DNA of 29,564 nt from a virus, in IMG/VR virus record IMGVR_UViG_3300043464_001570, positions 1-29,564 of that record. One strand, written 5' to 3'. Shown here piece by piece: positions 3,246-26,506 of the stretch. The first letter of the stretch is position 1, and every line of letters starts with the position of its first letter. Position numbers and translations under genes: made by a program. The notes beneath the pieces are model-generated. The model made no database searches and was not told the DNA's origin. It saw nothing but the letters and a program-made list of their open reading frames with translations.

Positions 3246-4211
3246 TTAGCTGTTTGCGCCGATGCTGGACGACGACTCGATGCGACGGAGCGATGCCTCA
3301 CGGAATCGACCGTAACCGCCGAGCCAGTACCAGCCGATCGGGTTGAAACGCATGAGCGAATCCACGATCGGGCCGCGAACGACCTTCGGGAACGCGCTGT
3401 TGCCATCAACCTGGCTGTACGCCTTTGCGAGTGCCTGACGACCCATGATGTGGGTGCAGTACACGTCGATGGTTCCGGTGGTGCTGGTGCCGTTCGAGGC
3501 GTTCTCGAAGACCTTTGCACGTGGCGTTTCGATGAAGCGCACCGACTCGAAGGTGCCGATCTCGCCGTTGTAGATGTTGGCGGTATCGACAGCGACGTGC
3601 GGAGCGTTCCACGAAGCGTTGCCGGTTTCACGACGCAGGTCGTACGACACGTCTGGGTGAATGAAACCCATGTAGTAGCCGTTGAACGTTGCGACGTTGG
3701 CCTTGCGAAGCTGTGCGGTCACCTTGCGGATGTCGTTGGCTTCGATGATGTCTTCTGCTGCAACCGTGACACGGCTCGACGGATCGGACGATCCACCGCC
3801 ACCGTAGACAACGTTCGTGCCACCAGCGAGAACTTCGCGGATGACCTGATCGATGGAGTCACCAGCGTTGTAGCCGATGACGTTCGCTGCGGTGACATCC
3901 ACATCGAGGAACGAGGTTCCACGAAGCTTGGCGGTCGTGTTGACGGTGTTGCCGTACTCGGCAAGGGTCACCGTGACCTGCGAATCGCTCATCGCGACCG
4001 GATCAACGTCTGCCGTTTCCGAGAGGGTCGAGGTTGCTGCTGCGAGATCGGAGAAGATCGTGAACGTCACCGACGAACCAGGCATGGACTGGTTGGTTGG
4101 CTGCACGTCTGCCGCCTGATCGAACAGAAGTTCAGAGCGCAACGCGAAGTATGCGATCTGATCGTATGCTGCCTGATCGACAGACAGCGATGATTGCTGG
4201 GTGTAAGCCAC
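3246..4211 (-). CDS. Major capsid protein, N4-gp56 family
   Basis: The gene encodes 321 aa starting at GTG with AAAAGGAAG upstream. The sequence fits the N4-gp56 family of HK97-fold capsid proteins. FIHPDVSYDLR lies at residues 183-193, followed by an IYNGEIGTFESVRFIETP segment (213-230). A basic/aromatic C-terminal region includes NPIGWYWLGGYGRFREA. This is the shell subunit of the head. It follows a scaffold-like gene and is followed by a strong terminator, the usual arrangement for the most abundant virion protein. Its length is ordinary for the family. Confidence 0.93.
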   Translation of the reverse strand: MAYTQQSSLSVDQAAYDQIAYFALRSELLFDQAADVQPTNQSMPGSSVTFTIFSDLAAATSTLSETADVDPVAMSDSQVTVTLAEYGNTVNTTAKLRGTSFLDVDVTAANVIGYNAGDSIDQVIREVLAGGTNVVYGGGGSSDPSSRVTVAAEDIIEANDIRKVTAQLRKANVATFNGYYMGFIHPDVSYDLRRETGNASWNAPHVAVDTANIYNGEIGTFESVRFIETPRAKVFENASNGTSTTGTIDVYCTHIMGRQALAKAYSQVDGNSAFPKVVRGPIVDSLMRFNPIGWYWLGGYGRFREASLRRIESSSSIGANS

Positions 4212-13708: not shown

Positions 13709-15472
13709 TCAGCCTCCTAACTGTGCGAGCAAATCACCGATAGGTGGAGGACCAGCAGGTGTTGGCGGTGCAGCTTGCATTTCTGCGCCCATACCTGGCA
13801 TCGCCAACCCTGGCATCGTTTCAGGTGCACCCTGAGGTGCCATAGCCGCCTGACGGTCACGTGCTCTCTGATCCGTGCGCTTCACAGCCTCAAACAACGG
13901 GACATCTTGCTCAACCACCAGACGGGTTAGATACGCCAAGTCCTCTGGTTGATACGGGCCATCAGGATTCGAAGCCTGCTGCTGAATACTCTGAAGTAAA
14001 GCACTCTCCACCCCTTCCGCAATAATTCGGTCATGTTCTAGATCAGGGTCGGTGATGAGCGGGTCCGCTTCACGCGCTGATTCTTTGCTCATCAATCCCG
14101 TACCGAGCCGCTGACCTAGACCAATAATCAGGCTGTTCACATCTGAGCCTGCCGCCGAATACGCAACATAATGGAAATCGGATTCCCACAGTTTGTTTGG
14201 CGTGTATGAATCTTGTCCCACTGTGGCGCGACCAGGAATATAGAATGACTTCTTTTCGTTACCCCAATACGCTTTCTCAATCGCGATAGCGATTTTGTCC
14301 TCAGCCAGAATGGATTGCTCAAATGTCGTTTGCGCTTCTTGAACTCGATAGTCAACTGTTGCAGAAAGAACGGATTCGCCGCGCCGACCGGTACGGATAT
14401 TTGAAGCGGATTCGCCACCAAATTCCGCTGGAATGGCACCTTCAAGCCGTTCCTGACGCTCCAACCGATCCAACGCCGTGTCAGTCTTGTAACCAGGGTT
14501 GAGTTGCTCGGAGCGGATGTCGCCACCTTTGACGATACCGATGACACCAGCAGCAGGATCCGCAACCTGAATGATCTCAGGGTTCTCACCAGAACGCGCA
14601 ACCAGATATTCGGCAGGGAAGATACCGCGCTCAATAGCGATCTCTGTCAACGCTTGTAGACGGGCACGGGTGTAATACATCCCTAACACACCATCGAACT
14701 GTCCTTTCGGGCGATCCAATGTGATGCGGTTAGCAACAACAGCCAACGGCATCTCGGTACGGTTCGGGATGTATTCAACCATCACAGCCCCAAGACCAGA
14801 TGACTCTGCTGGGGTCAGGTGAGCGTCGTTCTCTGCACCCATAACAACAAGCTGAATTTCGTATGGTGATACGTATTCGAGCATTGTGTAACGGGTATCA
14901 GCATCAATACGCCCCATACGCAAACGATTGGTGACAAGTTCACCGTAGGTGCGAATCAGGTACGAGGCGGTGACACGATACGAGAAAATGCAGTCTTCGG
15001 GTAGCGGATCATCAGGATCATCAATCGGTGCCGCGAAAGTATCCAACGGGTTACGTACAGACCAGGTTGGCATCAACGTTTTGAAATCAGGTTTGATAAC
15101 AACCGCCGACTGGCTGTAGCCGAGCAGGTGACGGGAGCGGCGACGCATCTTCATCTGCATACGGTTGTGATCCCACATGGAAAGCATCGCCCGCTTACGG
15201 GTACGAGCCGAACTCTTGGACCGCTCCGAACCTTCCTTCATTGGTGGGAAGTATGGGGATGGCATCGTGGATGCGACACGCATCGACATTTGATCCAAAC
15301 CTTGCACAAGCAGGTTCGCTACAGACGACTTCGCGTTCCTGTCCAGCTCGTTGAGTGGTACAATGACATCACCGTTTGCGAGTTCGCGTACACGGCGCAT
15401 CTGCTCATGCACAGGCCCCAGTGCCCTACGACGCTGGTTGTAAAGTTCAACGATTTCGTCTGTGGACAGCAT
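13709..15472 (-). CDS. Portal protein
   Basis: The gene encodes 587 aa. The N-terminus (residues 1-60) is a helical start typical of portals (YNQRRRALGPVHEQM), followed by NLLVQGLDQMSMRVAS and a basic segment. The middle carries alternating beta and helix, and the C-terminal 60 residues are Gln/Pro/Met-rich (PGLAMPGMGAEMQ). The portal is the dodecameric ring through which DNA enters and leaves the head and on which the terminase docks. It lies two genes after the large terminase and before the virion proteins, as expected. The start codon is 7 nt after a TATCGT box with no ribosome site, so a leaderless mRNA is likely. Confidence 0.85.
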   Translation of the reverse strand: MLSTDEIVELYNQRRRALGPVHEQMRRVRELANGDVIVPLNELDRNAKSSVANLLVQGLDQMSMRVASTMPSPYFPPMKEGSERSKSSARTRKRAMLSMWDHNRMQMKMRRRSRHLLGYSQSAVVIKPDFKTLMPTWSVRNPLDTFAAPIDDPDDPLPEDCIFSYRVTASYLIRTYGELVTNRLRMGRIDADTRYTMLEYVSPYEIQLVVMGAENDAHLTPAESSGLGAVMVEYIPNRTEMPLAVVANRITLDRPKGQFDGVLGMYYTRARLQALTEIAIERGIFPAEYLVARSGENPEIIQVADPAAGVIGIVKGGDIRSEQLNPGYKTDTALDRLERQERLEGAIPAEFGGESASNIRTGRRGESVLSATVDYRVQEAQTTFEQSILAEDKIAIAIEKAYWGNEKKSFYIPGRATVGQDSYTPNKLWESDFHYVAYSAAGSDVNSLIIGLGQRLGTGLMSKESAREADPLITDPDLEHDRIIAEGVESALLQSIQQQASNPDGPYQPEDLAYLTRLVVEQDVPLFEAVKRTDQRARDRQAAMAPQGAPETMPGLAMPGMGAEMQAAPPTPAGPPPIGDLLAQLGG

Positions 15473-15831: not shown

Positions 15832-15849
15832 CCAAGATAACACACTAAA
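15832..15849 (-). promoter_or_regulatory. Extended -10 promoter between terminase and the basic-protein gene
   Basis: The minus strand reads TTTAGTGTGTTATCTTGG; its TAG is also the stop codon of the terminase gene. The TGTTATCTT box lies 27 nt before the ATG of the 101-aa gene, leaving room for its TAGGAG site. It is an 18-base near-copy of the portal promoter at 15478-15495. Confidence 0.5.
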
Positions 15850-17821
15850 TCCAAGACGGTCGCCACATTCTCGGAGGCGTTTTCACCGGACCAAGATTCG
15901 GCATATGCAACTCTGCGAACCAGTGAGCCATCACCAAGTCCGTCCCGTTCTTCTTATCGCGAGTCCACGACGACATTTCCTCTACAAACGCCAACGTCTT
16001 CCAATTTTCCCGCATCGTCGGGAGACGAACCTGCCCTGTGCGCCACAGTTGTGGCAGTAGAGCCTCAACACCCAAGTTTTCGTCCAGTTTGTTGCGGGAA
16101 GTGGTGTGCGGAACCACCATCACCCCATGCAAAGCCTGCCATTTACGCACGAAATCGTGTGCCAGCAGGAATCGTTGCGCTGCGTTCACCTCAACCACCC
16201 AATGCGAAATCGGATACCCCATCTCAAAGGCCCGATTCTGCCAATCTTCCATGATTCCGCTATACACACGGCTCGTAGTGTCGTAGCCGAGGAGCTGTTC
16301 TGCGGTGAGTTTGACTCTTTCCACGTCAATCAGGAAGCGGAGGTTGGTTTCGGGCTGGAAAATCCACCATTGGATAGCCCAAAACATGGTTGGACTCGGA
16401 TCCACCGAAGCAATCGAGATCAGTGGGGGCTGTAAACCAGCAGGAATGTACCCTGGTCGACGTTCGTTATCGATGCAACCTGGGTAGAGCACCCCATCGG
16501 GGCCGATTCCACCGGTTGCCCACACTCGTTCGATTAGATAGTTCCCTTCGGCTTGGTCTTCTTGCTGGTAGACGACCGCGAATTTCGCTGGGTTGGAGTG
16601 TTTGATGTACGAGAGGTCTTTCCAGGAGAGCCGGTACGGGTCGAGGAGCGGTCCGTTCGGCCACGCTGGGCTGGTGTTCCTTTTGCTTTGGAGTCCTGTG
16701 TCGAGGTCTTCGTAGTAGGCGCGGTAGATGAGGTGATGGTATTTCTGTTTTTTGAGCGGTTCTTTGACTTCGGAGAGGTCGGTGACATCTGATCCGTCGT
16801 AGTCGTCTTCAAAGTCTTCGTAGGTGACTTTGGAGAGGCAGTGGGCGTAAAGGTCGAGGGGTCCGAGTCTTTGTCCGATAACTGCCAGAAGGCCACCTGG
16901 ATCGACACGCGCTTCAGCCATCGAATCCCATCTTTCAATAAGTTTGTCACGAGCAGCTGACTCCTTCGCATTTTCTGGTGAGGCCACGTCATCAAACAAA
17001 CAGAGATCGGCGCGATGTCCGATGAATTCTGATTCGATGCCGTACGCCGACACGGTTGGTTCTTTGTTATCTAATCCACCGAGGTCTTCTTGTTCCACGA
17101 TGAACTCCTCAGCCCGCCACAAACTCCCCGCGGTAGAAGGCTTGAATCTTCCATAATCGATAGCCAAACACCCCTCAGCCTTTATTGCCAACCCTTTATC
17201 AATCAGCACAGGGTCAGGGTCCAACGGGAACTGACGCTCCAACGTTTCACGGATACGACGCGAATACATTTTCGCCAACGCCTGCGAAACCGACCCAATC
17301 ATCACACGAATCTTCCGATTCTTGACTATCTGCCAAACAGCGACATCATGGAACAGGGTGGATTTACCGGCACCAGGCGGACAATTCAAAACCAGAAACT
17401 CTTTCTCATCCGACAACAACCACTGCTCAATCTTGTATGCAGCATCCACCTGCCACGGGCTAGGGACACGCCCCAAATATCTGCGCCTGAAAAAGTCGAA
17501 ATCGATTAGCCCACGTTTCGCGTCCTCCGACAGGCGATCATGCGGAATAACTGGTGGCAGGTCAGACACATCCATAACCTTCTGCCACGCATCATGCTGA
17601 ACCCCACCCTCCCCCTTACGGATCTTCGCCCCATCAAGCTTCGCGATCTCCAACTCCGCTTTCGCTTTACGCTTCCGCGCATCCCACCCCTGAGCAGTGT
17701 TGTAATGCACCCCAGCAATCTTTGCTGCTTCCTTGATCGTCATGCCTGATGCACGGGCCTGCCAGAAACGTGCGACATCCTGTGGCGGAACCTGCCGCCT
17801 CCCACTCCTCCCAGCTGGCAT
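15845..17821 (-). CDS. terL: Terminase large subunit with N-terminal helix-turn-helix
   Basis: The gene encodes 658 aa. The Walker A motif CPPGAGKST lies at about residues 147-155 and a Walker-B-like LCLFDDV at about residue 273. An RNase-H-type nuclease half follows, with SVDPSP, VVEVN and NGTDLVMAH as candidate acidic positions. The enzyme cuts the concatemer and pumps DNA into the head through the portal. Unusually, residues 20-55 (TIKEAAKIAGVHYNTAQGW) form a helix-turn-helix like those of small terminase subunits, and no separate small-subunit gene is apparent nearby. The start ATG has an AGAAGG site and lies 3 nt after the stop of the 244-aa gene. Confidence 0.9.
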   Translation of the reverse strand: MPAGRSGRRQVPPQDVARFWQARASGMTIKEAAKIAGVHYNTAQGWDARKRKAKAELEIAKLDGAKIRKGEGGVQHDAWQKVMDVSDLPPVIPHDRLSEDAKRGLIDFDFFRRRYLGRVPSPWQVDAAYKIEQWLLSDEKEFLVLNCPPGAGKSTLFHDVAVWQIVKNRKIRVMIGSVSQALAKMYSRRIRETLERQFPLDPDPVLIDKGLAIKAEGCLAIDYGRFKPSTAGSLWRAEEFIVEQEDLGGLDNKEPTVSAYGIESEFIGHRADLCLFDDVASPENAKESAARDKLIERWDSMAEARVDPGGLLAVIGQRLGPLDLYAHCLSKVTYEDFEDDYDGSDVTDLSEVKEPLKKQKYHHLIYRAYYEDLDTGLQSKRNTSPAWPNGPLLDPYRLSWKDLSYIKHSNPAKFAVVYQQEDQAEGNYLIERVWATGGIGPDGVLYPGCIDNERRPGYIPAGLQPPLISIASVDPSPTMFWAIQWWIFQPETNLRFLIDVERVKLTAEQLLGYDTTSRVYSGIMEDWQNRAFEMGYPISHWVVEVNAAQRFLLAHDFVRKWQALHGVMVVPHTTSRNKLDENLGVEALLPQLWRTGQVRLPTMRENWKTLAFVEEMSSWTRDKKNGTDLVMAHWFAELHMPNLGPVKTPPRMWRPSWI

Positions 17822-17824
17822 TAC

Positions 17825-18559
17825 TTACCTTCTATTGGTGCGCGACTTACCCGTGTTCGATTTCTTCGAAGAATCCCTTTTACCTGCCGCATAACCAGCA
17901 ACAAGACCAGCCGTACCTGCAACAACACCACCACCAGCGGCACCAGCAACAATGCCGCGTCGTGCACCTTGCGCAGAATAACGAGCAATTCTTGCAGCAT
18001 CCTTTTCAGCCATCTTGATCCGACGCTGCACATCACCAAGCATCTGAGCTTCGGTACGCACAGGGGTCACACGATACGAGGAACGACCCTCAGAAACACC
18101 ACCAGGAGTGACAACGGTCCCGCGCATACCCTTGATTTTCCCACCAGGATTAGGTGTCATTGATTCAATCTTGTCCAAAGAACGATCAAACGCCCGATCA
18201 CCCAAACCCTGACCGATCTGGTTGGCCTTCGTGTTGATTGCTTTCGTGACAAACTTTGGTGCGCGAATACCAATTGGAGAAGCAGCCATACCAGCAACAG
18301 AAGCATCAAGGGCAGAACTCAACTTCTGCTTCACAGGCATATCCCGCATCTTCTTGTTCTGCATTGTTTGGCGACTGTAATTCCCTAAACCCTTTTGAGC
18401 GTTCGTTACTGGTTTGCCACGTTCCGCAGCACGACCGGTCTTGCCCAACTCCTGACCAAGAAGTTTTTCCTTCTTCGAAGACTGTGCTCGCATCTTCTTG
18501 CCACGCTCAGCTGCACGACCCTGCTTACCGCGTTGCGATCCACCCTTAGAAGAAGCCAT
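17825..18559 (-). CDS. Basic protein with Gly/Ala-rich C-terminal hydrophobic segment
   Basis: The gene encodes 244 aa starting at the ATG of MASSKGGSQRGKQ; the open frame extends further upstream, but the promoter box and lack of a ribosome site fix this start. Residues 1-70 are very basic, with two RAAERGK repeats. Near residues 200-228 lies a Gly/Ala/Val-rich hydrophobic stretch (GAAGGGVVAGTAGLVAGYAAG) that could span or insert in a membrane, followed by a basic tail. No family is recognised. It precedes the terminase by 3 nt and may be a small-subunit substitute, a DNA-binding protein or a virion protein. Confidence 0.6.
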   Translation of the reverse strand: MASSKGGSQRGKQGRAAERGKKMRAQSSKKEKLLGQELGKTGRAAERGKPVTNAQKGLGNYSRQTMQNKKMRDMPVKQKLSSALDASVAGMAASPIGIRAPKFVTKAINTKANQIGQGLGDRAFDRSLDKIESMTPNPGGKIKGMRGTVVTPGGVSEGRSSYRVTPVRTEAQMLGDVQRRIKMAEKDAARIARYSAQGARRGIVAGAAGGGVVAGTAGLVAGYAAGKRDSSKKSNTGKSRTNRR

Positions 18560-18565
18560 GCTGAT

Positions 18566-18574
18566 ACCATAACA
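18566..18574 (-). promoter_or_regulatory. Extended -10 promoter, leaderless start of the 244-aa gene
   Basis: The minus strand reads TGTTATGGT, then ATCAGC, then ATG. The TANNNT box is 6 nt from the start codon and no ribosome site is present. The pattern matches those before the 98-aa, portal and 120-aa genes. Confidence 0.5.
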
Positions 18575-18576
18575 GA

Positions 18577-18639
18577 TGTGTTGGTGGGTGTGCCGTCGAG
18601 CACCCCCTCCGCTCCGGTTTCTCCCCGCCCACCAACACA
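18577..18639. repeat. 12-bp perfect inverted repeat upstream of the 244-aa gene
   Basis: TGTGTTGGTGGG (18577-18588) pairs perfectly with CCCACCAACACA (18628-18639), with a 39-nt GC-rich spacer. The element lies between the upstream terminator and the promoter box of the 244-aa gene. It could be a regulator-binding site or a cruciform. It has no T-run, so it is not a terminator. Confidence 0.6.
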
Positions 18640-18641
18640 CC

Positions 18642-18675
18642 AAAACAAAAAGCCCCCCACCCGAAGGCAAGGGGC
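18642..18675 (-). terminator. Intrinsic terminator with TTCG tetraloop
   Basis: The minus strand reads GCCCCTTGCC, loop TTCG, GGTGGGGGGC, then TTTTTGTTTT. The stem is 10 bp with a few G-T pairs and is capped by a stable C(UUCG)G loop. It ends the transcript of the 98-aa gene (stop at 18690). Confidence 0.9.
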
Positions 18676-18689
18676 CAGATGCTTGGAAG

Positions 18690-18986
18690 CTACTTCAACT
18701 TCTTCTTTTTTGGTTCCCTCATCGGGCGAACAGATGGATTTTTGGTGATAGGCACCTTACCTTTAGCAATAGGTGCGGCAAGATTCGGGCTTGCGTAATC
18801 AGGAAAGGTTCGTTGATTTGATGTTTTGACTTTTGGATTGTCAACAAAAACTGTTTTTCTTTGCTGAGCGGTCATCGGTCGCAAATTTCTTTTTGCATAG
18901 GAACCAGGGGCTGGTTCGTTTATTGACTTTCTGTAATCAGCAAGCGAACCCTGATAGTTCGGCTTTACAGTTTTCTTCGATGCCAT
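18690..18986 (-). CDS. Small basic protein, unknown function
   Basis: The gene encodes 98 aa starting at MASKKTVKPN; a longer in-frame start exists upstream, but the promoter box 6 nt before this ATG favours the shorter form. It is rich in Lys, Arg, Pro and Asn and ends in EPKKKKLK. There is no Cys and no clear domain. Its MAS-K start resembles those of the other small basic proteins of this module. It stands as its own transcription unit between a leaderless promoter and a strong terminator. A nucleic-acid-binding or head-internal role is a guess. Confidence 0.6.
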   Translation of the reverse strand: MASKKTVKPNYQGSLADYRKSINEPAPGSYAKRNLRPMTAQQRKTVFVDNPKVKTSNQRTFPDYASPNLAAPIAKGKVPITKNPSVRPMREPKKKKLK

Positions 18987-18992
18987 GTTGTA

Positions 18993-19001
18993 AGAGTAGC
19001 A
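18993..19001 (-). promoter_or_regulatory. Extended -10 promoter, leaderless start of the 98-aa gene
   Basis: The minus strand reads TGCTACTCT, then TACAAC, then ATG. The box is again 6 nt from the start codon, with no ribosome site. It is the first candidate promoter of the leftward virion module. Confidence 0.5.
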
Positions 19002-19021
19002 GAGGTGTGGTACAGTCACAG

Positions 19022-19202
19022 ACAGCTTCATCAAGTCCCTCATGTCGGGAGACACAGGGCACCCACGTGCGTACACCCCTTGCAAGGTGCGGGCAGCAAA
19101 CAGGGAAACCTGGGTAGACCTCTCATCATCGAATGAGGGGAGCAGCGAGAGAACGTAACTCAACAACTGGTGTCGGCTAAAACAAACTGGCTACGGCGAC
19201 CA
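19022..19202. other. Non-coding stretch with several short hairpins, possible RNA
   Basis: No credible gene is seen here. On the plus strand, CAGG-GAAA-CCTG forms a GNRA-type hairpin (19100-19112 area). TCCC pairs with GGGA near 19036-19050, CACC with GGTG around the CCTTGCAAGG palindrome, and CCTCTCAT with ATGAGGGG near 19119-19140. The GNRA loop would exist only on a plus-strand RNA. The stretch may be part of the origin or encode a small RNA. Confidence 0.35.
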
Positions 19203-19318
19203 TTCCACACACCCTGTGGATAAACCGTGGGGGAAGCCACAAACACACTCACTCGAAGCATTAGCCAAAAAGAATGTGTACACACACGTACACAAAGTTA
19301 TCCACAACCTGTGGACAA
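19203..19318. other. Cluster of DnaA boxes, candidate replication origin
   Basis: TGTGGATAA (19215-19223) and TTATCCACA (19298-19306) are exact consensus DnaA boxes in opposite orientation. TGTGGACAA (19310-19318) is the reverse of TTGTCCACA, the form common in Actinobacteria. The last two form an inverted pair with a 3-nt spacer. A degenerate partner, TTCCACA (19203-19209), faces the first box. A GTACAC-ACAC-GTACAC repeat lies between, and an A/T-rich patch follows near 19366-19385. Genes diverge from here on both sides. Together these support an origin recognised by host DnaA. Confidence 0.65.
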
Positions 19319-19451
19319 ACCCCACCCCCTCCCTTCCAGAGCCGCTACACAAAACCACACGTAGAGAAAAACGCTTATATGTATGGATCACCGGGCGTGC
19401 CTCGGCAGACCCCGGGTTGTGTGTGTGCGGTGTGTGGCGGCTTCGTCACTG

Positions 19452-19522
19452 TCGGTGGTCAGTGTGCGCGACCACTCTCCGTGAACACTTGACCACCGAA
19501 CACCCCCCTACCCACGGAGAGT
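19452..19522 (+). other. Interlocked inverted repeats, possible pseudoknot RNA
   Basis: CGGTGGTCAGTGT (19453-19465) pairs with ACACTTGACCACCG (19485-19498) with one bulge. ACTCTCCGTG (19474-19483), inside that loop, pairs perfectly with CACGGAGAGT (19513-19522) outside it. This is the topology of an H-type pseudoknot, or of two mutually exclusive hairpins. The stretch holds no credible gene and lies between the DnaA boxes and the plus-strand cassette. A control RNA or an origin structure is inference. Confidence 0.5.
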
Positions 19523-19583
19523 AGCGAGATCACCACCCTAAGTAATCCGCGCATAATGCCGCCTAGCGTGTCGTGGTGGCTAC
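19521..19583 (+). other. Bulged stem-loop upstream of the plus-strand promoter
   Basis: GTAGC (19521-19525) and CACCAC (19531-19536), separated by a 5-nt bulge, pair with the continuous GTGGTGGCTAC (19573-19583). It begins where the preceding pseudoknot-like repeat ends and shares two bases with it, so the two structures may compete. Confidence 0.4.
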
Positions 19584-19595
19584 TGGGGGTGGTAC

Positions 19596-19624
19596 TTGCA
19601 TTGTGTTGGTGGGGGGTGTATCTT
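19596..19624 (+). promoter_or_regulatory. Candidate promoter of the plus-strand cassette
   Basis: TTGCAT (19596-19601) and TATCTT (19619-19624) are spaced by 17 bp, each matching the vegetative sigma consensus at four positions. They lie about 70 nt before the first GTG of the cassette. No competing promoter is obvious in the gap. Confidence 0.45.
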
Positions 19625-19695
19625 GGGTGGTGCCGCGTAGGTGCGCGGTAGTTTGCGGGGTGGCTTGCAAGCTTGGTTGATTAGGAGGGTGATTA

Positions 19696-19872
19696 GTGAA
19701 CACTGAGAGAGTGCCGCATAGCGGGGCCGTCGTGGTGACGGCGTTAGTGAGTGACGGGGCGGGTCCGTGGTATCTGTCGCGTACGTATTATGGGTACACC
19801 GTGGCCGAAGCGCGGCGGGCGTATCGTGCATATTGCAAGGAATACAGTCTGACGATGGAGGGGGGCCGCTGA
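19696..19872 (+). CDS. Small protein, first gene of the plus-strand cassette
   Basis: The gene encodes 58 aa starting at GTG with a strong TTAGGAGGG site 5 nt before it. The middle, WYLSRTYYGYTVAEARRAY, is an aromatic/basic segment followed by a helix, a build common in small actinophage and plasmid proteins. No function is known to me. Its stop overlaps the start of the ArdC-like gene (TGATG), so the two are translated together. It shares the GC-rich codon use of the cassette. Confidence 0.7.
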   Translation: MNTERVPHSGAVVVTALVSDGAGPWYLSRTYYGYTVAEARRAYRAYCKEYSLTMEGGR

Positions 19873-20285
19873 TGGCACGTAAAACATATACACCGGAGCA
19901 GCGCGAAGCGGTAAACGTTTACCGTGCGCGGCTGATCGAAGCCGCCCGCCTGATGGAGGAGGAGCAGCCCGCGGACATTGATCTAGCGGCTGCAGTGTTG
20001 GCGGGCTATTCGCGTCGCAATATCGCGCTGATACTTGTGCAGTGCCAAGAACGGGGCGCTTCGTTCCCGCAAGCGGTAGCGGGCTTCCATCAGTGGCGAC
20101 AGGCGGGCCGTATCGTGCGCAAGGGTGCTAAGGGGTACGCGATATGGGCCCCCATCGTGCGTAAGAATGACGATGTGGAGGAGGGGCCGCGCGGGTTTAC
20201 TATGCGGCACGTGTTCGACGTGGCAGATACGGACCCGATAGCGGCAGATAGTCCCGATACGTTGCGGGCGCTAATGGCAAGTTAG
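19872..20285 (+). CDS. ArdC-like protein (N-terminal ssDNA-binding domain only)
   Basis: The gene encodes 137 aa. YSRRNIALILVQ (residues 46-57), GFHQWRQAGRIVRKGAKG (71-88) and FTMRHVFDVADT (109-120) follow the order of the N-terminal domain of ArdC antirestriction proteins (N-x-x-x-I-x-x-Q, then W-x-x-x-G-R-x-V-x-K-G-x-K-G, then VFD-x-x-x-T). In ArdC this domain binds single-stranded DNA and is followed by a zinc metalloprotease-like domain. Here the protein ends after the first domain and no HExxH motif exists. It may protect incoming DNA from host restriction, consistent with the ArdA gene next to it. The stand-alone domain could be a functional short form. Confidence 0.75.
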   Translation: MARKTYTPEQREAVNVYRARLIEAARLMEEEQPADIDLAAAVLAGYSRRNIALILVQCQERGASFPQAVAGFHQWRQAGRIVRKGAKGYAIWAPIVRKNDDVEEGPRGFTMRHVFDVADTDPIAADSPDTLRALMAS

Positions 20286-20293
20286 GTAGGTGG

Positions 20294-20380
20294 CCCCGTC
20301 CGCTTGGGCGGCTGCACGTTCATGACGTGCACGGGGCGCGATGGCGGGATAGTCTCGCTATCACGGGGCCAGTGGTGGCC
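20294..20380 (+). other. Structured leader: multi-hairpin RNA element, copy 1
   Basis: Between the ArdC-like gene and ardA, CCCCGT (20294-20299) and ACGGGG (20331-20336) can close a three-way junction holding CCGC-TTGG-GCGG and GCACGT-TCATG-ACGTGC. Separate hairpins follow: GATAG-TCTCG-CTATC (20348-20362) and GGCCA-GTGG-TGGCC (20367-20380). The ardA ribosome site lies just after. The same layout recurs at 21504-21565. No T-run follows, so a simple terminator is unlikely. Confidence 0.5.
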
Positions 20381-20402
20381 ACGTTCACGATTAGGAGGAG
20401 AT

Positions 20403-21005
20403 ATGTCGGTATCTACTACGACGGGGGAGCCGCGCGCGTGTGTCGTGTGTCTGTCTTGTCTCAATGAGGGGCGGGCGCTTGGCGTATGGCTTCATATTGA
20501 GGACGCGGCGGTCGAAGCTGACGCTTCAATCGGCTGCTATTGCGAGGGCGGCGACCCTTGTACGCATATCACTTATGGCGGGCAAGGTGAAGCCGCCAAG
20601 TATCCAAGCGGGGCGCTATACGTGGCGTGTAAGCGTTGCGGCGGTGATGAATGGGAGATGGCGGACTGGGAATATCTGCCGCCATCGTTGCGGACCGTGC
20701 GCGGGTTCTACGAACTAGCGCAAGAATGGGCGGCACTTGACGACCCCGAAGCCTTGTATATCTTCGCCAAGTGGTACGACCCCGCGGGCAAGTTATCGGT
20801 ATCGGAGTTAGTTACCGCGCACGAAGACAGATATTGCGGAGAGTGGGACTCATTTAGGGATTATGCGGAGCAGTACGCCGAAGACACCGGCGATCTAGCG
20901 GCGATGCCTGAACACTTGGCCCGCTATATCGACTGGGACGCATACGCGCGCGACCTTGAGCATGACTACTACTACGACGGCGGGCACGTGTGGAGGTCCT
21001 ACTAA
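20403..21005 (+). CDS. ardA: ArdA antirestriction protein with Cys-rich insert
   Basis: The gene encodes 200 aa after an AGGAGGAGAT site. The fold-defining ArdA parts are present: CLNEGRALGVWL (residues 19-30), DEWEMADWEYLP (82-93), a helical middle, YCGEWDSFRDYAEQYAEDTG (144-163) and LARYIDWDAYARDL (172-185). ArdA proteins are acidic DNA mimics that bind type I restriction-modification enzymes and block them. Family members are usually about 165 aa. Here residues 44-81 are extra and hold C45, C47, C53, C76 and C79, with further Cys at 13, 16 and 19, so a bound metal is possible. It lies beside the ArdC-like gene and shares its composition. Confidence 0.88.
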   Translation: MSVSTTTGEPRACVVCLSCLNEGRALGVWLHIEDAAVEADASIGCYCEGGDPCTHITYGGQGEAAKYPSGALYVACKRCGGDEWEMADWEYLPPSLRTVRGFYELAQEWAALDDPEALYIFAKWYDPAGKLSVSELVTAHEDRYCGEWDSFRDYAEQYAEDTGDLAAMPEHLARYIDWDAYARDLEHDYYYDGGHVWRSY

Positions 21006-21397
21006 TGGCACGTCGCAAAGTAGGCAACATTCCCGCCATCGTCAAAGCGTACGAGGTCGATATAAAGCGGGCAGAACGTAACGCTAAGGGCGCGCAAGGT
21101 CCGGCGCGTGAAGCTTGGGAGCGGTACGCGGCAGATACGCGGCGACACTTGCTAACACTGCAGCGGGCTATCGATAGCGGGGCCGTGAGCGGTGAGCCTG
21201 ACGCGGCGGAGGGTGTAGCGCCCGTGGTGAAGCGTAAGCGGGCCGCGAAGCCGAAGCCAGTAGCGACACCGGAGCCGGTCCGCGATGAGTTTGCGCACTT
21301 GCCAAGCGATCAAGCGGCGTGGGCGCGTCACCTGATGAGCCTTGAACGTGAGGACCTAGCACGCTTCGCGCGACGACGTGAGGGGGTGAGATCGTGA
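21005..21397 (+). CDS. Basic protein of the antirestriction cassette, unknown function
   Basis: The gene encodes 130 aa. Its ATG overlaps the ardA stop (TAATG), with GGAGG upstream in the ardA end. Residues 1-60 form a basic helix; about residues 75-95 are a Lys/Arg/Pro/Ala linker (VVKRKRAAKPKPVATPEP), and the C-terminus is an Arg-rich helix. No family is recognised. Tight coupling to ardA suggests a shared role. The basic charge would suit DNA binding or pairing with the acidic ArdA; both are inference. Confidence 0.7.
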   Translation: MARRKVGNIPAIVKAYEVDIKRAERNAKGAQGPAREAWERYAADTRRHLLTLQRAIDSGAVSGEPDAAEGVAPVVKRKRAAKPKPVATPEPVRDEFAHLPSDQAAWARHLMSLEREDLARFARRREGVRS

Positions 21398-21495
21398 GCG
21401 ACACACTGAGGGCACTTCTATTCATCTGGACCCCCACAGTGGTAGGGGTGGGGATATTGGACTACTTCTACCGTAAGAATAACCCGCGCAAGTAG
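21394..21495 (+). CDS. 33-aa single-pass membrane protein
   Basis: A GTG start overlaps the previous stop (GTGA), with GAGGGGG upstream. Residues 5-22 (LRALLFIWTPTVVGVGIL) form one hydrophobic membrane helix, followed by a basic tail (YRKNNPRK) that would stay in the cytoplasm. The overlap, ribosome site and matching composition support a real gene. Its function is unknown. Confidence 0.55.
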   Translation: MSDTLRALLFIWTPTVVGVGILDYFYRKNNPRK

Positions 21496-21503
21496 GCGCG
21501 GCT

Positions 21504-21565
21504 CCCGTCGCCGTGTGGCGTGATCTTCAATGATGAACGGGGACGATCTAGGGACGGACCCTAGA
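21504..21565 (+). other. Structured leader: multi-hairpin RNA element, copy 2
   Basis: CCCGT (21504-21508) and ACGGG (21537-21541) enclose CGCC-GTGT-GGCG and TTCA-ATGA-TGAA. A perfect 7-bp hairpin TCTAGGG-ACGGA-CCCTAGA follows at 21547-21565, then the AAGGAG ribosome site of the next gene. The order matches copy 1 at 20294-20362, including a GCAAGT word at the upstream stop codon. Confidence 0.5.
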
Positions 21566-21584
21566 CAGACACAAGGAGCAACCA

Positions 21585-21842
21585 GTGAAGATAGATAGGC
21601 AGACAGTGGAGCGGTGGCGGCAAGCTATCGCACCGTTAGATACACCGGAGACACGGGCGCGATATATTGCCCGCGATATCAGCAACGCGCACACGGTACG
21701 CGATATCAATGCGCGCTATAGCTTCGATCTTTTGTGGGCCGCCATCGATAGGGGTGCGATGGCCTACACCGATCTGAGCGGTTACGAAGATACCCATATC
21801 GCTACGGCGTTGCGTCGTATCGTCCCGAAGCTGGAGGGCTGA
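21585..21842 (+). CDS. Small protein of the plus-strand cassette
   Basis: The gene encodes 85 aa starting at GTG, 5 nt after AAGGAG. It is mostly helical, with TVERWRQAI at the start and RARYIARDI near residue 25. No domain is recognised. It is the first gene after the second structured leader. Its codon use (many ATA, GCG, CGG) matches the cassette. Confidence 0.65.
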   Translation: MKIDRQTVERWRQAIAPLDTPETRARYIARDISNAHTVRDINARYSFDLLWAAIDRGAMAYTDLSGYEDTHIATALRRIVPKLEG

Positions 21843-21844
21843 CG

Positions 21845-22114
21845 ATGGATATAAACGTACTGATTCACGAGCTATCACAAACTCGTGACCCGATGAATGA
21901 CTACGTGCCCCGCGCTATATGGGTGGATACGTTCAGCGGCACCTATGGCGGGGTCGATAGTCTCGCGATCATTGACGTAACCGAATGGTCCGAATATGAC
22001 TTCGACACTTGGGATGCGATGAGCGACCGGCAACGGAATAACTACGCCAACGGATACAAGTGCTGCGACGGGGACTACTACGGACCCGCTGAATACGTGA
22101 CGAGGGGCTACTAA
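21845..22114 (+). CDS. Small acidic aromatic protein
   Basis: The gene encodes 89 aa with GGAGGG upstream. It is rich in Asp, Tyr and Trp (WSEYDFDTWDAMS, CCDGDYYGPAEY), strongly acidic, and carries an adjacent Cys pair. A strongly acidic small protein next to ArdA could be another DNA-mimic inhibitor, but nothing in the sequence proves this. Its stop overlaps the next start (TAATG). Confidence 0.65.
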   Translation: MDINVLIHELSQTRDPMNDYVPRAIWVDTFSGTYGGVDSLAIIDVTEWSEYDFDTWDAMSDRQRNNYANGYKCCDGDYYGPAEYVTRGY

Positions 22115-22350
22115 TGGATAGGCAGATATCGGCACGGATTTATGAGATCGAATACAGCTGCTCCCCTGGCGGGGTGGATTGCTTCGCGGTTGAAGTGGGC
22201 GAGTTTGGTGGCCCTGACTTCGTATATCGCGAAGACTTCGGGAGTGCACCGGACGCGCTCGCGTGGCTGATTAGTAACTATCCCGTTACACAGCTGAACC
22301 TGACGGTGCAGACATTGGCGTGGTACTTCACGACGGAGGGTATCCAATGA
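22114..22350 (+). CDS. Small protein of the plus-strand cassette
   Basis: The gene encodes 78 aa and is acidic, probably a mixed alpha/beta fold (IYEIEYSC, then FAVEVGEFG, then PDALAWLI). No family is recognised. It is coupled at both ends: TAATG with the preceding gene and ATGA with the following one. Coupling and composition support a real gene. Confidence 0.65.
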   Translation: MDRQISARIYEIEYSCSPGGVDCFAVEVGEFGGPDFVYREDFGSAPDALAWLISNYPVTQLNLTVQTLAWYFTTEGIQ

Positions 22351-22709
22351 GATACGACGAGTGGGCCGCTATCGGTCACGCGAACGGGTGGCTAGGTGTA
22401 CGCACCGAGGACCCCGCCACGTCGCGTAGGGGTGCTGCATCGTTAGCGGTGCGGGCTGGGTCGCAGCGGGCGCTGCTATTGGAGCGTTACGCGGCGGGCA
22501 GTATGACCGATGAGGAGGCCGGATACCAGTCCGGACTAGCCAGTAGGCCGCGCTGCTGCTATTGGAAACGGTGCAGTGAGCTACGTCAGGCGGGCCATAT
22601 CAGGCCGACAGGTGCGGAGCGTATGTCTTCGGCGGGTGTGCCGCAGCAAGTGTGTGAGATCACCGAGGACGGAAGGAGGACGCTCGATGCGTTGGCGGCT
22701 GCACGGTAG
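22347..22709 (+). CDS. Winged-helix-like DNA-binding protein
   Basis: The gene encodes 120 aa; its ATG overlaps the previous stop (ATGA) and a GGAGGG site is present. Residues 45-90 read as a winged helix: a helix (SQRALLLERYAA), a short helix-turn-helix (TDEEAGYQSGL...SRPRCCYWKRCSELRQAGHI), then wing residues and a final ITEDGRRTLDAL helix. Similar small winged-helix proteins occur in actinophages and plasmids and are taken as regulators. It may control this cassette. An adjacent Cys pair (CC) in the recognition region is unusual. Confidence 0.65.
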   Translation: MRYDEWAAIGHANGWLGVRTEDPATSRRGAASLAVRAGSQRALLLERYAAGSMTDEEAGYQSGLASRPRCCYWKRCSELRQAGHIRPTGAERMSSAGVPQQVCEITEDGRRTLDALAAAR

Positions 22710-22956
22710 GAATATCAAGCGCAAGGTGCTGAGCTATCGGGGCGCGTTCGCAAAGCCATCCACCGAGGTGTGGATAGTGCGACGCTCCGATGGGTTGATC
22801 TATGCGGGACCGTACCGGTATCAGGGGCAAACGTTCACGCGGGTGGAGGCTATGCACTATCGGTATGGGTCGCAATCCGCAGCGCAACGCGCGTTGGAAG
22901 AACTAGGTGGAGAGCACTACCATAGGGGCAAGATCGAAGTAGTGAGGGTTCAATGA
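22687..22956 (+). CDS. Last gene of the plus-strand cassette, unknown function
   Basis: The gene encodes 89 aa starting at ATG after a strong GGAAGGAGG site that lies inside the end of the preceding gene (23-nt overlap). It is basic, with a short beta-rich core (TEVWIVRRSDGLIYAGPY) and a C-terminal helix plus strand. No family is recognised. A structured gap and a strong terminator follow, marking the end of the cassette. Confidence 0.65.
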   Translation: MRWRLHGRNIKRKVLSYRGAFAKPSTEVWIVRRSDGLIYAGPYRYQGQTFTRVEAMHYRYGSQSAAQRALEELGGEHYHRGKIEVVRVQ

Positions 22957-23002: not shown

Positions 23003-23010
23003 GCCCACAA

Positions 23011-23068
23011 GTGGCCCGCTCCCAGCTGTCCCCCTAATCCGGCTGGTTGAGCGGGTCACTTTTCTTTT
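23011..23068 (+). terminator. Terminator of the plus-strand cassette
   Basis: GTGGCCCGCTC (23011-23021) pairs with GAGCGGGTCAC (23049-23059) with one G-T pair; the inner CCAGC/GCTGG extends the stem. TTTTCTTTT follows at once. It lies about 55 nt after the last plus-strand stop codon. Confidence 0.85.
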
Positions 23069-23207
23069 GTGCGCTATTGGAAACGGCTTCCATATAGGAC
23101 GGGATTAGGCGGTGTTTATTGGGGTTGCTGCACACCGGTGGTTCACTCAGCTTGACGTACACGGTGCACGTGCGCTTGCATCGGGGGCAACGGTAGGTCT
23201 GTCTCAC
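23034..23207 (-). CDS. Small Cys-rich zinc-finger-like protein
   Basis: The gene encodes 57 aa starting at GTG, overlapping the stop of the previous gene (GTGA). Residues 6-15 read RCPRCKRTCT, a CxxC knuckle, followed by SEPPVC near residue 26. Small proteins of this look (YRCPxC...V...SEPPxC) are common in actinophage genomes and probably bind zinc; their role is unknown. The 3' end runs through the loop and one arm of the plus-strand terminator. No strong ribosome site is seen, so it probably depends on translational coupling. Confidence 0.65.
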   Translation of the reverse strand: MRQTYRCPRCKRTCTVYVKLSEPPVCSNPNKHRLIPSYMEAVSNSAQKKSDPLNQPD

Positions 23208-23452
23208 GGCTCGTACACAATGATCGGGGTACGTTCACCGGCCCATAATCCTACGATGTTGTACTCGACATACTCGGAAGCGTCGTCCTCGTCCATCCCC
23301 TGCTCGATGAATGATTGCACGAGACGCCGGTATGAATAGATTGCGACCGGCTCCATATCGACACGGGATCCGTAGCCAATAAGTGCGCTATCGCAAGCGT
23401 CAAACAGCACAGCACCATCGGCGTACTCGTTGATGAAGTCTCGTGTGTTCAT
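23204..23452 (-). CDS. Small acidic protein, unknown function
   Basis: The gene encodes 82 aa; an upstream in-frame start exists, but AGGAG 7 nt before this ATG and the ATGA overlap with the preceding gene fix the start. It is acidic with many Asp/Glu and Tyr residues (DDASEYVEYNIVGLWAGE). It has no recognised domain. It forms an overlapping chain with the Cys-rich genes on both sides. Confidence 0.65.
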   Translation of the reverse strand: MNTRDFINEYADGAVLFDACDSALIGYGSRVDMEPVAIYSYRRLVQSFIEQGMDEDDASEYVEYNIVGLWAGERTPIIVYEP

Positions 23453-23766
23453 TGTGTTCTCCTGCATGAGCAAAATTGGGATGTCCTGTAGGTGAAGCCG
23501 AGTTGTTGGATGGGTGTGCCTTCGATGAAGCCGGTGTTTCCGCACTTGTCGCAACCGATCTCTGCGAGTTGACGGTTCATGACCTTACGGAACATCGCTT
23601 CAATAGCGTTCAAGTCTGGGAACTTTGGTAACGGTTTGCAGTCTGCGAGCACTTGTTTGCCGTGTTCGCTGGTTGCGTCGATGATGATTTCGGAGTGTTT
23701 CCACCCGTTCTTCAACGTGTTTCGTGCGATGTTCGTGGTTGGCCAGAATGAGCAGAGGCGGTCCAC
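23449..23766 (-). CDS. Protein with C-terminal zinc-knuckle motif
   Basis: The gene encodes 105 aa from a GTG start. Residues 1-65 are helical with a KFPDLNAIEAMFRKVM segment. The C-terminus holds CDKCGNTGF and CSC, a pattern resembling the DnaJ-type or phage zinc knuckle CxxCxGxG...CxC. It may bind zinc and nucleic acid. The start is uncertain: no good ribosome site precedes GTG, and the same frame continues upstream for 10 sense codons to the TAA of the coiled-coil gene. Confidence 0.6.
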   Translation of the reverse strand: MDRLCSFWPTTNIARNTLKNGWKHSEIIIDATSEHGKQVLADCKPLPKFPDLNAIEAMFRKVMNRQLAEIGCDKCGNTGFIEGTPIQQLGFTYRTSQFCSCRRTQ

Positions 23767-24816: not shown

Positions 24817-24846
24817 AGAATATCAAAGATGACGAACAGGTTACAA
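24817..24846 (-). promoter_or_regulatory. Promoter of the lysozyme-like/WhiB operon
   Basis: On the minus strand, TTGTAA (24841-24846) and TATTCT (24817-24822) are spaced by 18 bp, with TGA before the -10 box. The -10 box lies 12 nt before the ATG, so the leader is very short and may keep only part of the ribosome site. A terminator hairpin lies just upstream. Confidence 0.5.
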
Positions 24847-24892
24847 AATAAGGGTATCGCCCCAGCCGACCAGATTTTGACATCGGCTGGGG
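24841..24892 (-). terminator. Hairpin terminator after the nuclease gene
   Basis: CCCCAGCCGA pairs perfectly with TCGGCTGGGG (10 bp, 13-nt loop); on the minus strand an interrupted T-run (CCCTTATTTT) follows. It lies between the 152-aa gene and the promoter of the lysozyme-like gene. The 30 nt after it overlap that promoter's -35 box. Confidence 0.65.
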
Positions 24893-24904
24893 AGAATCAC
24901 ACCT

Positions 24905-24920
24905 ACACCAGTGACAGTGG
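24905..24920. promoter_or_regulatory. Copy of the CCACTGnCAGTGG-type word
   Basis: ACACCAGTGACAGTGG matches the word at 4807-4822 at 14 of 16 bases. Both lie in short gaps behind a leftward gene and ahead of a new promoter. It may be a shared operator; chance is not excluded. Confidence 0.25.
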
Positions 24921-24938
24921 GTTCCCTTTGCGTGATCC

Positions 24939-25397
24939 TTACGAGATGAGAGCCAACAGCTCCGCGAACTCTGTGAGCGACATCAACACGATACCGTCAC
25001 TCGTACCATCCGGCATCGCGATCATCGCGAAAGGACGGACATCTCCCAACGCTTTGGATGCTTCAGACTGCGAACGAGCAGCATCGAAACGTGTAGCAAT
25101 CGGACCCACCTGGCTACCCGCTTTGACTTCGACACGAAACATCCCGCCCCAATGTTCCTCATGGCGAGTGCCTGCATTACCTGTCGCAGCAAGACCCAGT
25201 TTCTTCCGTGCACGTCGAGCTTTGCTATCACCCTTAGTGCGGTTCCTTCTTCCACGAGCAACAGGGTCGCCACATCCCTTGACCCGTCGTTTACCGTCAC
25301 GGCCTTCACGTCCCAAAGTTCCGAACTTAGGGCATCCAGCGACCGTGCACTTGTCTTTGCGTCCTTCACATTCTCCCTTTCGGTTCTGTTCCAGCAT
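24939..25397 (-). CDS. Putative PD-(D/E)xK-like nuclease or resolvase
   Basis: The gene encodes 152 aa. Its ATG overlaps the stop of the recT gene (TGATG); GTG one codon earlier is also possible. The N-terminal part has four Cys (10, 17, 22, 42) in a basic region, like a zinc ribbon. Then come RHEEHWGG (78-85), FRVEVKAGSQV with the Glu-x-Lys pair (90-92), AARSQSEASKA and a C-terminal strand plus helix. The E-x-K step after a strand is what the second half of a PD-(D/E)xK nuclease looks like. Similar proteins are frequent in actinophages without firm function. Its place directly behind RecT suggests a recombination role. Confidence 0.6.
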   Translation of the reverse strand: MLEQNRKGECEGRKDKCTVAGCPKFGTLGREGRDGKRRVKGCGDPVARGRRNRTKGDSKARRARKKLGLAATGNAGTRHEEHWGGMFRVEVKAGSQVGPIATRFDAARSQSEASKALGDVRPFAMIAMPDGTSDGIVLMSLTEFAELLALIS

Positions 25398-26506
25398 CAC
25401 TTCGGGTTCAGGGTGTCGATGATCTGTGATGCTTCACCCTTCGTCAAGTCATCCAGCTTGCTGATCGGGCGACCAATCGCATCGGTGCACAGTGAAGCAA
25501 GGTCTTCGTTCGTGATGATGTTCACGTTCCGTGCCATCTTGCGAATCACACCCAACTGTGGTGCGGTTGCAGGTGCGGACGGATCCTTGATCTTCGGCTT
25601 GCTGTTCGCGGGGTGTGATTGGATTGCTTCGACCGGTACCCCTTTCGCACCGAACATATCGACCAACTCAGCCTCCACATCAGCGACCGTGCGAATCGGG
25701 TAGCCTTCCACGAACTCTGGCTCAGGTTCCACAATCTCGGCATCCTGAATCGGGGAGAACAAATCCTCCTTCACCTTCTTGAACGCTGCCCGCAACGCTG
25801 GCATATCAGACTCACGGATCTCTTTGCCTTCCAGCCCAGCAGTCTTGATGACTTCGGTGTGGCTGATCGGCACAGCATCACAAGCAGCCTTGAACCGTGC
25901 CAGATTGTCTGCCGATACGACAGGGTTGATCTCACGGATCTCCGCCATCTGTGGTGCAGCTGGAGCGTTATCAGCCTGCGACATCTCCTCAGCCGTGTAC
26001 AAACCAGACAGGTCTTGTGGGAACGCTTTACGCAACGCGAGCGCCTCAGCACACTTCGCCAACATACGGTGCGGCATCTTCGCCCACAACCCCATCGGCT
26101 TCCCATCCTTGCCTGTCTGCACATACTCCTCGATACGTGCGGTAGCCGTGAAGTTGCATACCTGTCCGTCCACAATCTTGCGAACCGTCACCGTCGCAGA
26201 CAAAGGCTTACCGTTTTCTTCGACCCAGGTTTCGTCTGAACCTGCGTACTTGCCGGTGCGTTCAGCAATCAAACGGTATCCATCGATGCCAGTCTGAATG
26301 GTGTAGCGGGTGGCGTTCGCACGACCATCCCAACGACCCACCATATAGATCTGCTTTGCGAACGGATCCAACCCTGTGCGTACACACTGGTGGAAGAACA
26401 CGGCGAGATCACCGTCCGATACTTTGTCCACACCCAACTGCTTCAAGGTTGCCACCTGCTGTGGGGTGAAGCCTTGCTGGTCTGGTGCAATCACGAGGTT
26501 GCTCAT
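25397..26506 (-). CDS. bet: RecT/Bet-family single-strand annealing protein
   Basis: The gene encodes 369 aa, with AAAGGAG before ATG. The Bet/RecT pattern is clear: GLDPFAKQIYM (45-55), TGIDGYRLIAERTG (72-85), and MPHRMLAKCAEALALRKAFP (144-163). The C-terminal 170 residues are acidic with a disordered linker. The protein anneals complementary single strands exposed by the partner exonuclease, in replication and recombination of phage DNA. Its ATG overlaps the stop of the YqaJ exonuclease gene (TAATG), the usual exonuclease-annealing pair. Confidence 0.93.
   Translation of the reverse strand: MSNLVIAPDQQGFTPQQVATLKQLGVDKVSDGDLAVFFHQCVRTGLDPFAKQIYMVGRWDGRANATRYTIQTGIDGYRLIAERTGKYAGSDETWVEENGKPLSATVTVRKIVDGQVCNFTATARIEEYVQTGKDGKPMGLWAKMPHRMLAKCAEALALRKAFPQDLSGLYTAEEMSQADNAPAAPQMAEIREINPVVSADNLARFKAACDAVPISHTEVIKTAGLEGKEIRESDMPALRAAFKKVKEDLFSPIQDAEIVEPEPEFVEGYPIRTVADVEAELVDMFGAKGVPVEAIQSHPANSKPKIKDPSAPATAPQLGVIRKMARNVNIITNEDLASLCTDAIGRPISKLDDLTKGEASQIIDTLNPK

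Follow-up and report, generated by a model that had tools for sequence, protein, structure and literature searches.

An exchangeable accessory cassette with an ArdA-type anti-restriction gene in uncultured podoviruses related to Beephvirinae

ArdA proteins are DNA mimics that inhibit type I restriction enzymes. In conjugative elements, ArdA and ArdC-N occur together in polyvalent proteins, and Iyer and colleagues proposed that ArdC-N is a DNA-binding domain that recruits ArdA to incoming DNA (PMC5512222). In plasmid leading regions, anti-restriction genes are clustered with methyltransferases in anti-defence islands, for which early expression near the entering end has been proposed (PMC11541004). 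Among cultured phages, a comparable arrangement is the right-end block of the Beephvirinae (Kumquat gp65-84, Manuel, FlowerPower, and Abafar), where small genes including an ArdA lie between the terminase and the replication genes on the circular map and are transcribed away from the terminase side; the Abafar paper mentions an ArdA-like gene (PMC11536984), and 29 records of Streptomyces phages contain an ArdA, in most cases at a similar place. Here we describe a block of ten plus-strand genes (g1-g10) in IMG/VR virus record IMGVR_UViG_3300043464_001570, a linear record of 29,564 bases that is referred to over its whole length as the window (G000 in our set of loci). The block is likely one allele, of the plus type, of an accessory cassette that is conserved and exchanged in a large group of uncultured, Beephvirinae-related podoviruses, and it includes the gene of a predicted type I anti-restriction protein.

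The locus shares the position, the small genes, the ArdA, and the direction away from the terminase with the Beephvirinae block, but there are also differences. In Kumquat, most of the small-gene block and of the replication genes share one direction, whereas the block in the window opposes its neighbours, and Kumquat ArdA is only weakly similar to g3 (E 0.005) and has no cysteine pairs. Clustered anti-restriction genes and methyltransferases are likewise shared with the plasmid leading regions; unlike these, the window is a phage double-stranded DNA genome with no transfer strand, relaxase, or single-strand promoter, and its order of entry is one that we infer. ArdC-N and ArdA are found together as in the polyvalent proteins of conjugative elements, but in the window they are encoded by separate small genes and no metallopeptidase domain accompanies them.

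By its gene content, the window is part of the genome of a podovirus akin to the Streptomyces Beephvirinae: it encodes a related capsid protein (a match to Phage_capsid_3, with 41-44% identity to Streptomyces phages including Kumquat and Manuel) together with a terminase, a portal, RecT, YqaJ, and an exonuclease. The gene order terminase-portal-capsid is also the same as in those phages. Since the related contigs G018 and G025 are each about 39.5 kb long, about 10 kb of the phage genome is absent from the window. A search of annotated phages at the DNA level with the window gave no match, and a terminase scan for prophages across 84,980 species did not reveal a host.

An earlier note on this DNA, made from the sequence alone, had described ten small, tightly packed plus-strand genes opposing their neighbours, with start/stop overlaps at most junctions and one strong terminator, in a phage context and of accessory nature, and all of this was upheld. 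The ten open reading frames were recovered by an independent gene call based on codon use and Shine-Dalgarno sites, and the genes flanking the block on either side are on the minus strand. Six of the nine junctions overlap (by 1, 1, 4, 1, 4, and 23 bases), and the remaining three are gaps of 2, 117, and 89 bases. The 129-nt stretch of the terminator folds with -58.4 kcal/mol (z -5.8), a stability equalled by none of 200 shuffles. The 530-base non-coding gap before the block contains no structured RNA that matches Rfam.

The two genes that the earlier note had placed side by side as ArdA and an ArdC-type factor, g3 and g2, are neighbours that both exceed their Pfam cut-offs. The protein g3 is an ArdA by Pfam (79.5 bits, cut-off 27), by sequence (profile match to PDB 2w82, E 2e-6), and by its predicted fold, in that its model (predicted local distance difference test score, pLDDT, of 87) has the full-length elongated ArdA fold and is matched by Foldseek to 2w82 (E 1.4e-4), with a Z of 8.2 for the 153 residues aligned between model positions 9 and 200. 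It shares with this ArdA, ORF18 of Tn916, a match over the full length of the fold, an acidic character (net charge -23, isoelectric point 4.3), and a YNEG..G.W-like motif at the start; it differs in that identity is only about 20-25% and in having N-terminal CxxC and CxxC pairs and a 14-residue insertion. Its closest homologues are in related uncultured phages (42-57% identity), whereas plasmid ArdA proteins are at 26-34%. The pairs C16xxC19 and C76xxC79 are invariant in all 14 sequences of the ArdA clade of g3 and constitute a candidate zinc site, which may form a zinc knuckle in the first domain. A full-text search found no paper with a title or abstract describing a zinc-type site in ArdA, which does not in itself prove novelty.

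Of the ArdC-type factor, only the domain stood. Residues 43-102 of g2 match positions 41-101 of the 123 in the PF08401 profile (32.7 bits, cut-off 22.6), and a Pfam search of the 137 residues found neither the C-terminal metallopeptidase domain of ArdC nor any further domain. Because only the N-terminal domain is present, g2 is a stand-alone ArdC-N protein and not a full ArdC. Its relatives in annotated collections are on 28 plasmids, many of them actinobacterial, and in no phages; these plasmid homologues are 30-43% identical, and the best match is in the related phage L137 (62%).

A scan anchored on the terminase yielded 53 further contigs with both flanks, giving 54 loci with the window. 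All 53 relatives have a cassette at this site, with the terminase on one side and, on the other, a group of small flanking genes followed by those for recombination (RecT and YqaJ); the stretch concerned measures 3.7-7.4 kb. Apart from the flank genes, practically all coding within any one cassette runs in a single direction, 29 cassettes being plus-type, as in the window, and 24 minus-type. The 687 proteins called in the 53 cassettes and the window fall into 242 clusters, including 142 singletons, and several families, such as ArdA and g7, are found in cassettes of either orientation. For nine of the ten genes in the block, all but g8, a homologue was found at this site among uncultured related phages.

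Near-identical viruses swap whole cassettes at this fixed genome position, even opposite-running ones. On the terminase tree, the orientation state changes at least nine times, both states are found within each of two sets of identical terminase proteins, and the terminase of the minus-type relative L182 is 100% identical to that of the window over the compared columns. A phage whose terminase protein is identical has an unrelated minus cassette with only g7 (77%) in common. The minus-type sisters L134 and L135 are about 90-95% identical to the window in the flanking DNA and share a short conserved gap block (19275-19332), and inside the cassette they have only the g7 gene in common with it, at about 80% DNA identity and inverted (77-78% in protein). 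The plus-type relative L185, with a terminase 99.4% identical, shares g5 (91%), g9 (69%), and g10 (85%) and not the rest. Therefore, cassettes have been swapped as units, and single genes turn over too. Trees built from tblastn-confirmed rows point to different histories for two families: in that of ArdA the orientation types are nearly separate, with 2 orientation changes, and that of g7, which rests on a short protein and in which the outlier row L196 is to be disregarded, has 6, of which the starred branches force 4. Phase variation by inversion of a single cassette was ruled out, as the plus and minus cassettes of sisters have only g7 in common.

The left border is likely the site of the genome ends and of cassette exchange. 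It contains conserved blocks (GGTGTCGGCTAAAA, TGGCTACGGCGACC, CGTGGGGGGAGC, CACAAAACCACAC, and AAACGCTTATA) that align across plus- and minus-type sisters, and the 10-mer GTGTCGGCTA, the core of the GGTGTCGGCTAAAA-type block, is present in 39 of the 54 loci. Kumquat has a 264-bp direct terminal repeat at the equivalent position, with the terminase as gene 1 and the ArdA (gp75) in the small-gene block at the opposite end; from this synteny it follows that the cassette in the window would abut a genome end. Many contigs break 0.4-2.3 kb upstream of the terminase, although strain variation at the cassette border would give the same result. As a separate observation, the conserved non-coding blocks at 19000-19480 are kept in both orientation types and are perhaps a packaging or genome-end signal.

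These features suggest how the cassette could work. Whole cassettes of either direction presumably replace one another by homologous recombination in the conserved borders, for which the phage's own RecT would be at hand, and single genes such as g7 also move between the plus and minus kinds. The likely start of the operon is in the 530-base gap, and its likely end is the terminator at 23.0 kb. With the cassette abutting the genome end as in cultured Beephvirinae, it would enter first and be expressed early, as T7 ocr and the plasmid leading regions (PMC11541004) suggest by analogy. The ArdA, as a DNA mimic, would most likely inhibit type I restriction enzymes, and g2, acting as a separate protein, may bind incoming DNA or recruit ArdA. 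The other eight genes would be host-interaction or regulatory genes.

Several results weigh against this interpretation. The candidate promoter listed in the earlier note could not be confirmed, as a consensus scan of the 530-base gap detected no sigma-70-like site, and over the whole region it gave 2 such sites against 2.9 expected. The genome ends are deduced from a distant relative, Kumquat, whose capsid is 44% identical and whose DNA gave no match to the conserved border blocks. Most families of the locus match no known anti-defence protein. Furthermore, only 7 of 49 other complete cassettes (about 14%) contain ArdA and none of the 49 contains ArdC-N; therefore, the locus does not have anti-restriction as a constant function, the window is unusual in pairing g2 with g3, and it is more apt to speak of an accessory cassette in which anti-restriction genes recur than of a proven counter-defence island. 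These frequencies also favour the strongest alternative, namely a general operon for early host takeover or regulation, most of whose genes are unrelated to defence and in which anti-restriction genes are occasional passengers. Other recognisable families in the cassettes of relatives (among them a DNA polymerase processivity factor, a primase, a RusA-like resolvase, and GP88) and the occurrence of g9 in other phages without the rest of the block point the same way. However, anti-restriction is the sole function recognised in the block of the window, where 2 of the 10 genes (g2 and g3) carry an anti-defence domain, methyltransferases are also found at the locus in relatives, and the fast turnover fits an arms race. 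We give this alternative a serious chance, somewhat short of even.

The deviant, GC-rich composition and the heavy CGG/GCG and ATA/CTA codon use reported in the earlier note were reproduced against both flanks. G+C is about 0.60 in the block vs about 0.53, and the synonymous codon distance between block and flanks is 0.123, as compared with a mean of 0.069 (standard deviation 0.012, maximum 0.103) for flank blocks of the same size. All four codons are raised (CGG 0.28 vs 0.10, GCG 0.54 vs 0.26, ATA 0.23 vs 0.05, and CTA 0.22 vs 0.07). The strand-symmetrised tetranucleotide distance, which rules out an orientation artefact, is 0.494 vs 0.17-0.25 for windows away from the block. Plus-type cassettes of relatives show the same codons raised over their own flanks (CGG and GCG in 26/29, ATA in 25/29, CTA in 24/29), whereas minus-type cassettes show ATA (22/24) and CTA (20/24) and not CGG (14/24) or GCG (8/24); mean correlations of tetranucleotide log-ratios with the window are 0.51 for plus-type and 0.34 for minus-type cassettes, vs about -0.24 for the window's own flank blocks. 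Since the codon signature recurs in plus-type relatives, it belongs to the locus and is not the mark of one recent plasmid import.

Part of this signal is strand-bound. GC skew at four-fold sites of the coding strand is -0.36 in minus-type cassettes (negative in 24/24) and +0.10 in plus-type cassettes (positive in 21/30), so that the same physical strand tends to be G-rich at silent sites regardless of gene direction. Cumulative GC skew is lowest near 19 kb, close to three DnaA-box-like sites in the gap, a possible replication origin, and TTRTNCACA is about four times denser in the gap than elsewhere across loci (0.22 vs 0.055 per kb). These observations would suit an explanation of the composition by a local pressure that depends on the strand and acts close to a replication origin or genome end, independent of gene origin. 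This is unlikely to be the whole cause: the skew cannot account for the strand-symmetric tetranucleotide shift or for the higher G+C, the plus-type effect is weak, and the DnaA-like boxes are present in only 10 of the 54 loci.

A bolder version of cassette exchange is quite doubtful, namely that the alleles swapped are whole anti-defence operons of opposite polarity, with most of the more than 200 clusters serving counter-defence and a zinc-binding ArdA subfamily among them; timing would then probably differ, with transcription from the genome end inward in one type and outward toward the end in the other. Very improbable is the origin proposed in the earlier note, a recent plasmid-derived anti-defence island inserted in a phage, for although the deviating composition, the plasmid records of ArdC-N relatives, and the theme of ArdA beside ArdC-N in conjugative elements (PMC5512222) would accord with it, a plasmid origin is rejected for nine genes by their same-site phage homologues, the ArdA identities, and the recurring codon signature, the position is fixed in 53 relatives, and only g2 has mainly plasmid relatives, its best match being from a phage.

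Table 1. Features of the window, with positions counted from its first base.
Feature	Positions	Strand	Remarks
Capsid protein	3246-4211	minus	
Portal	13709-15472		
Terminase large subunit	15845-17821	minus	phrog_38, E 4e-63; left flank anchor of block
Left border	17822-19695		two basic minus-strand reading frames by terminase, then mostly non-coding stretch with conserved blocks
DnaA-box-like sites (three)	19215-19318		TTATCCACA 19215-19223 minus; TTATCCACA 19298-19306 plus; TTGTCCACA ~19310-19318 minus
Ten-gene block	19696-22956	plus	
g1	19696-19872	plus	58 residues; family in 10 loci, all plus-type; 58% in G018
g2	19872-20285	plus	137 residues; stand-alone ArdC-N domain (single-stranded DNA-binding type), Pfam PF08401
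g3	20403-21005	plus	200 residues; ArdA anti-restriction protein, Pfam PF07275
g4	21005-21397	plus	130 residues, basic; 5 loci, plus-type only
g5	21394-21495	plus	33 residues; probably one membrane helix (by eye); 91% in L185
g6	21585-21842	plus	85 residues; 57-61% in L136, L192; weak phrog_9817
g7	21845-22114	plus	89 residues, acidic, net -10; cluster in 18 loci, both orientations
g8	22114-22350	plus	78 residues, acidic, net -8
g9	22347-22709	plus	120 residues; possibly winged-helix-type DNA binder (by eye); phrog_18663, E 7e-17
g10	22687-22956	plus	89 residues, basic; 12/12 loci plus-type, hallmark; 85% in L185
Intrinsic terminator closing operon	23010-23070	plus	long hairpin, then CUUUUCUUUUG
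Right border: flanking genes	23034-23766	minus	kept beside cassette in both orientation types

Among the other genes of the block, g9 is a hallmark of the plus type, as all 12 loci that contain it are plus-type; it is also found in 20 further viral contigs at 45-55% identity. No known fold could be assigned to g7, for which the model has a pLDDT of 73 and Foldseek gave no PDB match below E 0.001; its matches in BFVD are weak and from uncultured phages only, which is no proof of a new fold. No homologue of g8 was found, including at the equivalent locus of relatives.

In the cassettes of 21 relatives, in both orientations, there is a protein of about 206 residues (e.g., L214:6049-6669), possibly the PHROG match to a DNA polymerase processivity factor. 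Some relatives carry a C5 cytosine methyltransferase gene as an insertion at the cassette's right border (L134:3370-4556, L117:1680-3188, and L186:3636-4976), and a region beside the terminase (L134:9048-9734) reads by eye like an adenine methyltransferase. Elsewhere in the window, the C-terminal ~66 residues of a 532-residue protein (1178-2776) resemble those of the adjacent 98-residue protein (882-1178), as they do in relatives. In addition, overlapping reading frames lie on opposite strands at 24829-25422 (plus) and 24939-25400 (minus), and relatives keep both (about 75% and 84%, respectively), the minus one being the likelier gene.

Finally, it should be noted that this site is a natural catalogue of 242 clusters, mostly without known function, where anti-restriction genes recur. 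It supplies counter-defence screens in actinobacterial phages with a small candidate set that has clear bounds. The locus also raises the question of why one position tolerates operons of either polarity. In addition, the conserved CxxC...CxxC in the clade of g3 hints at a variant of this classic DNA mimic that is stabilised by metal.

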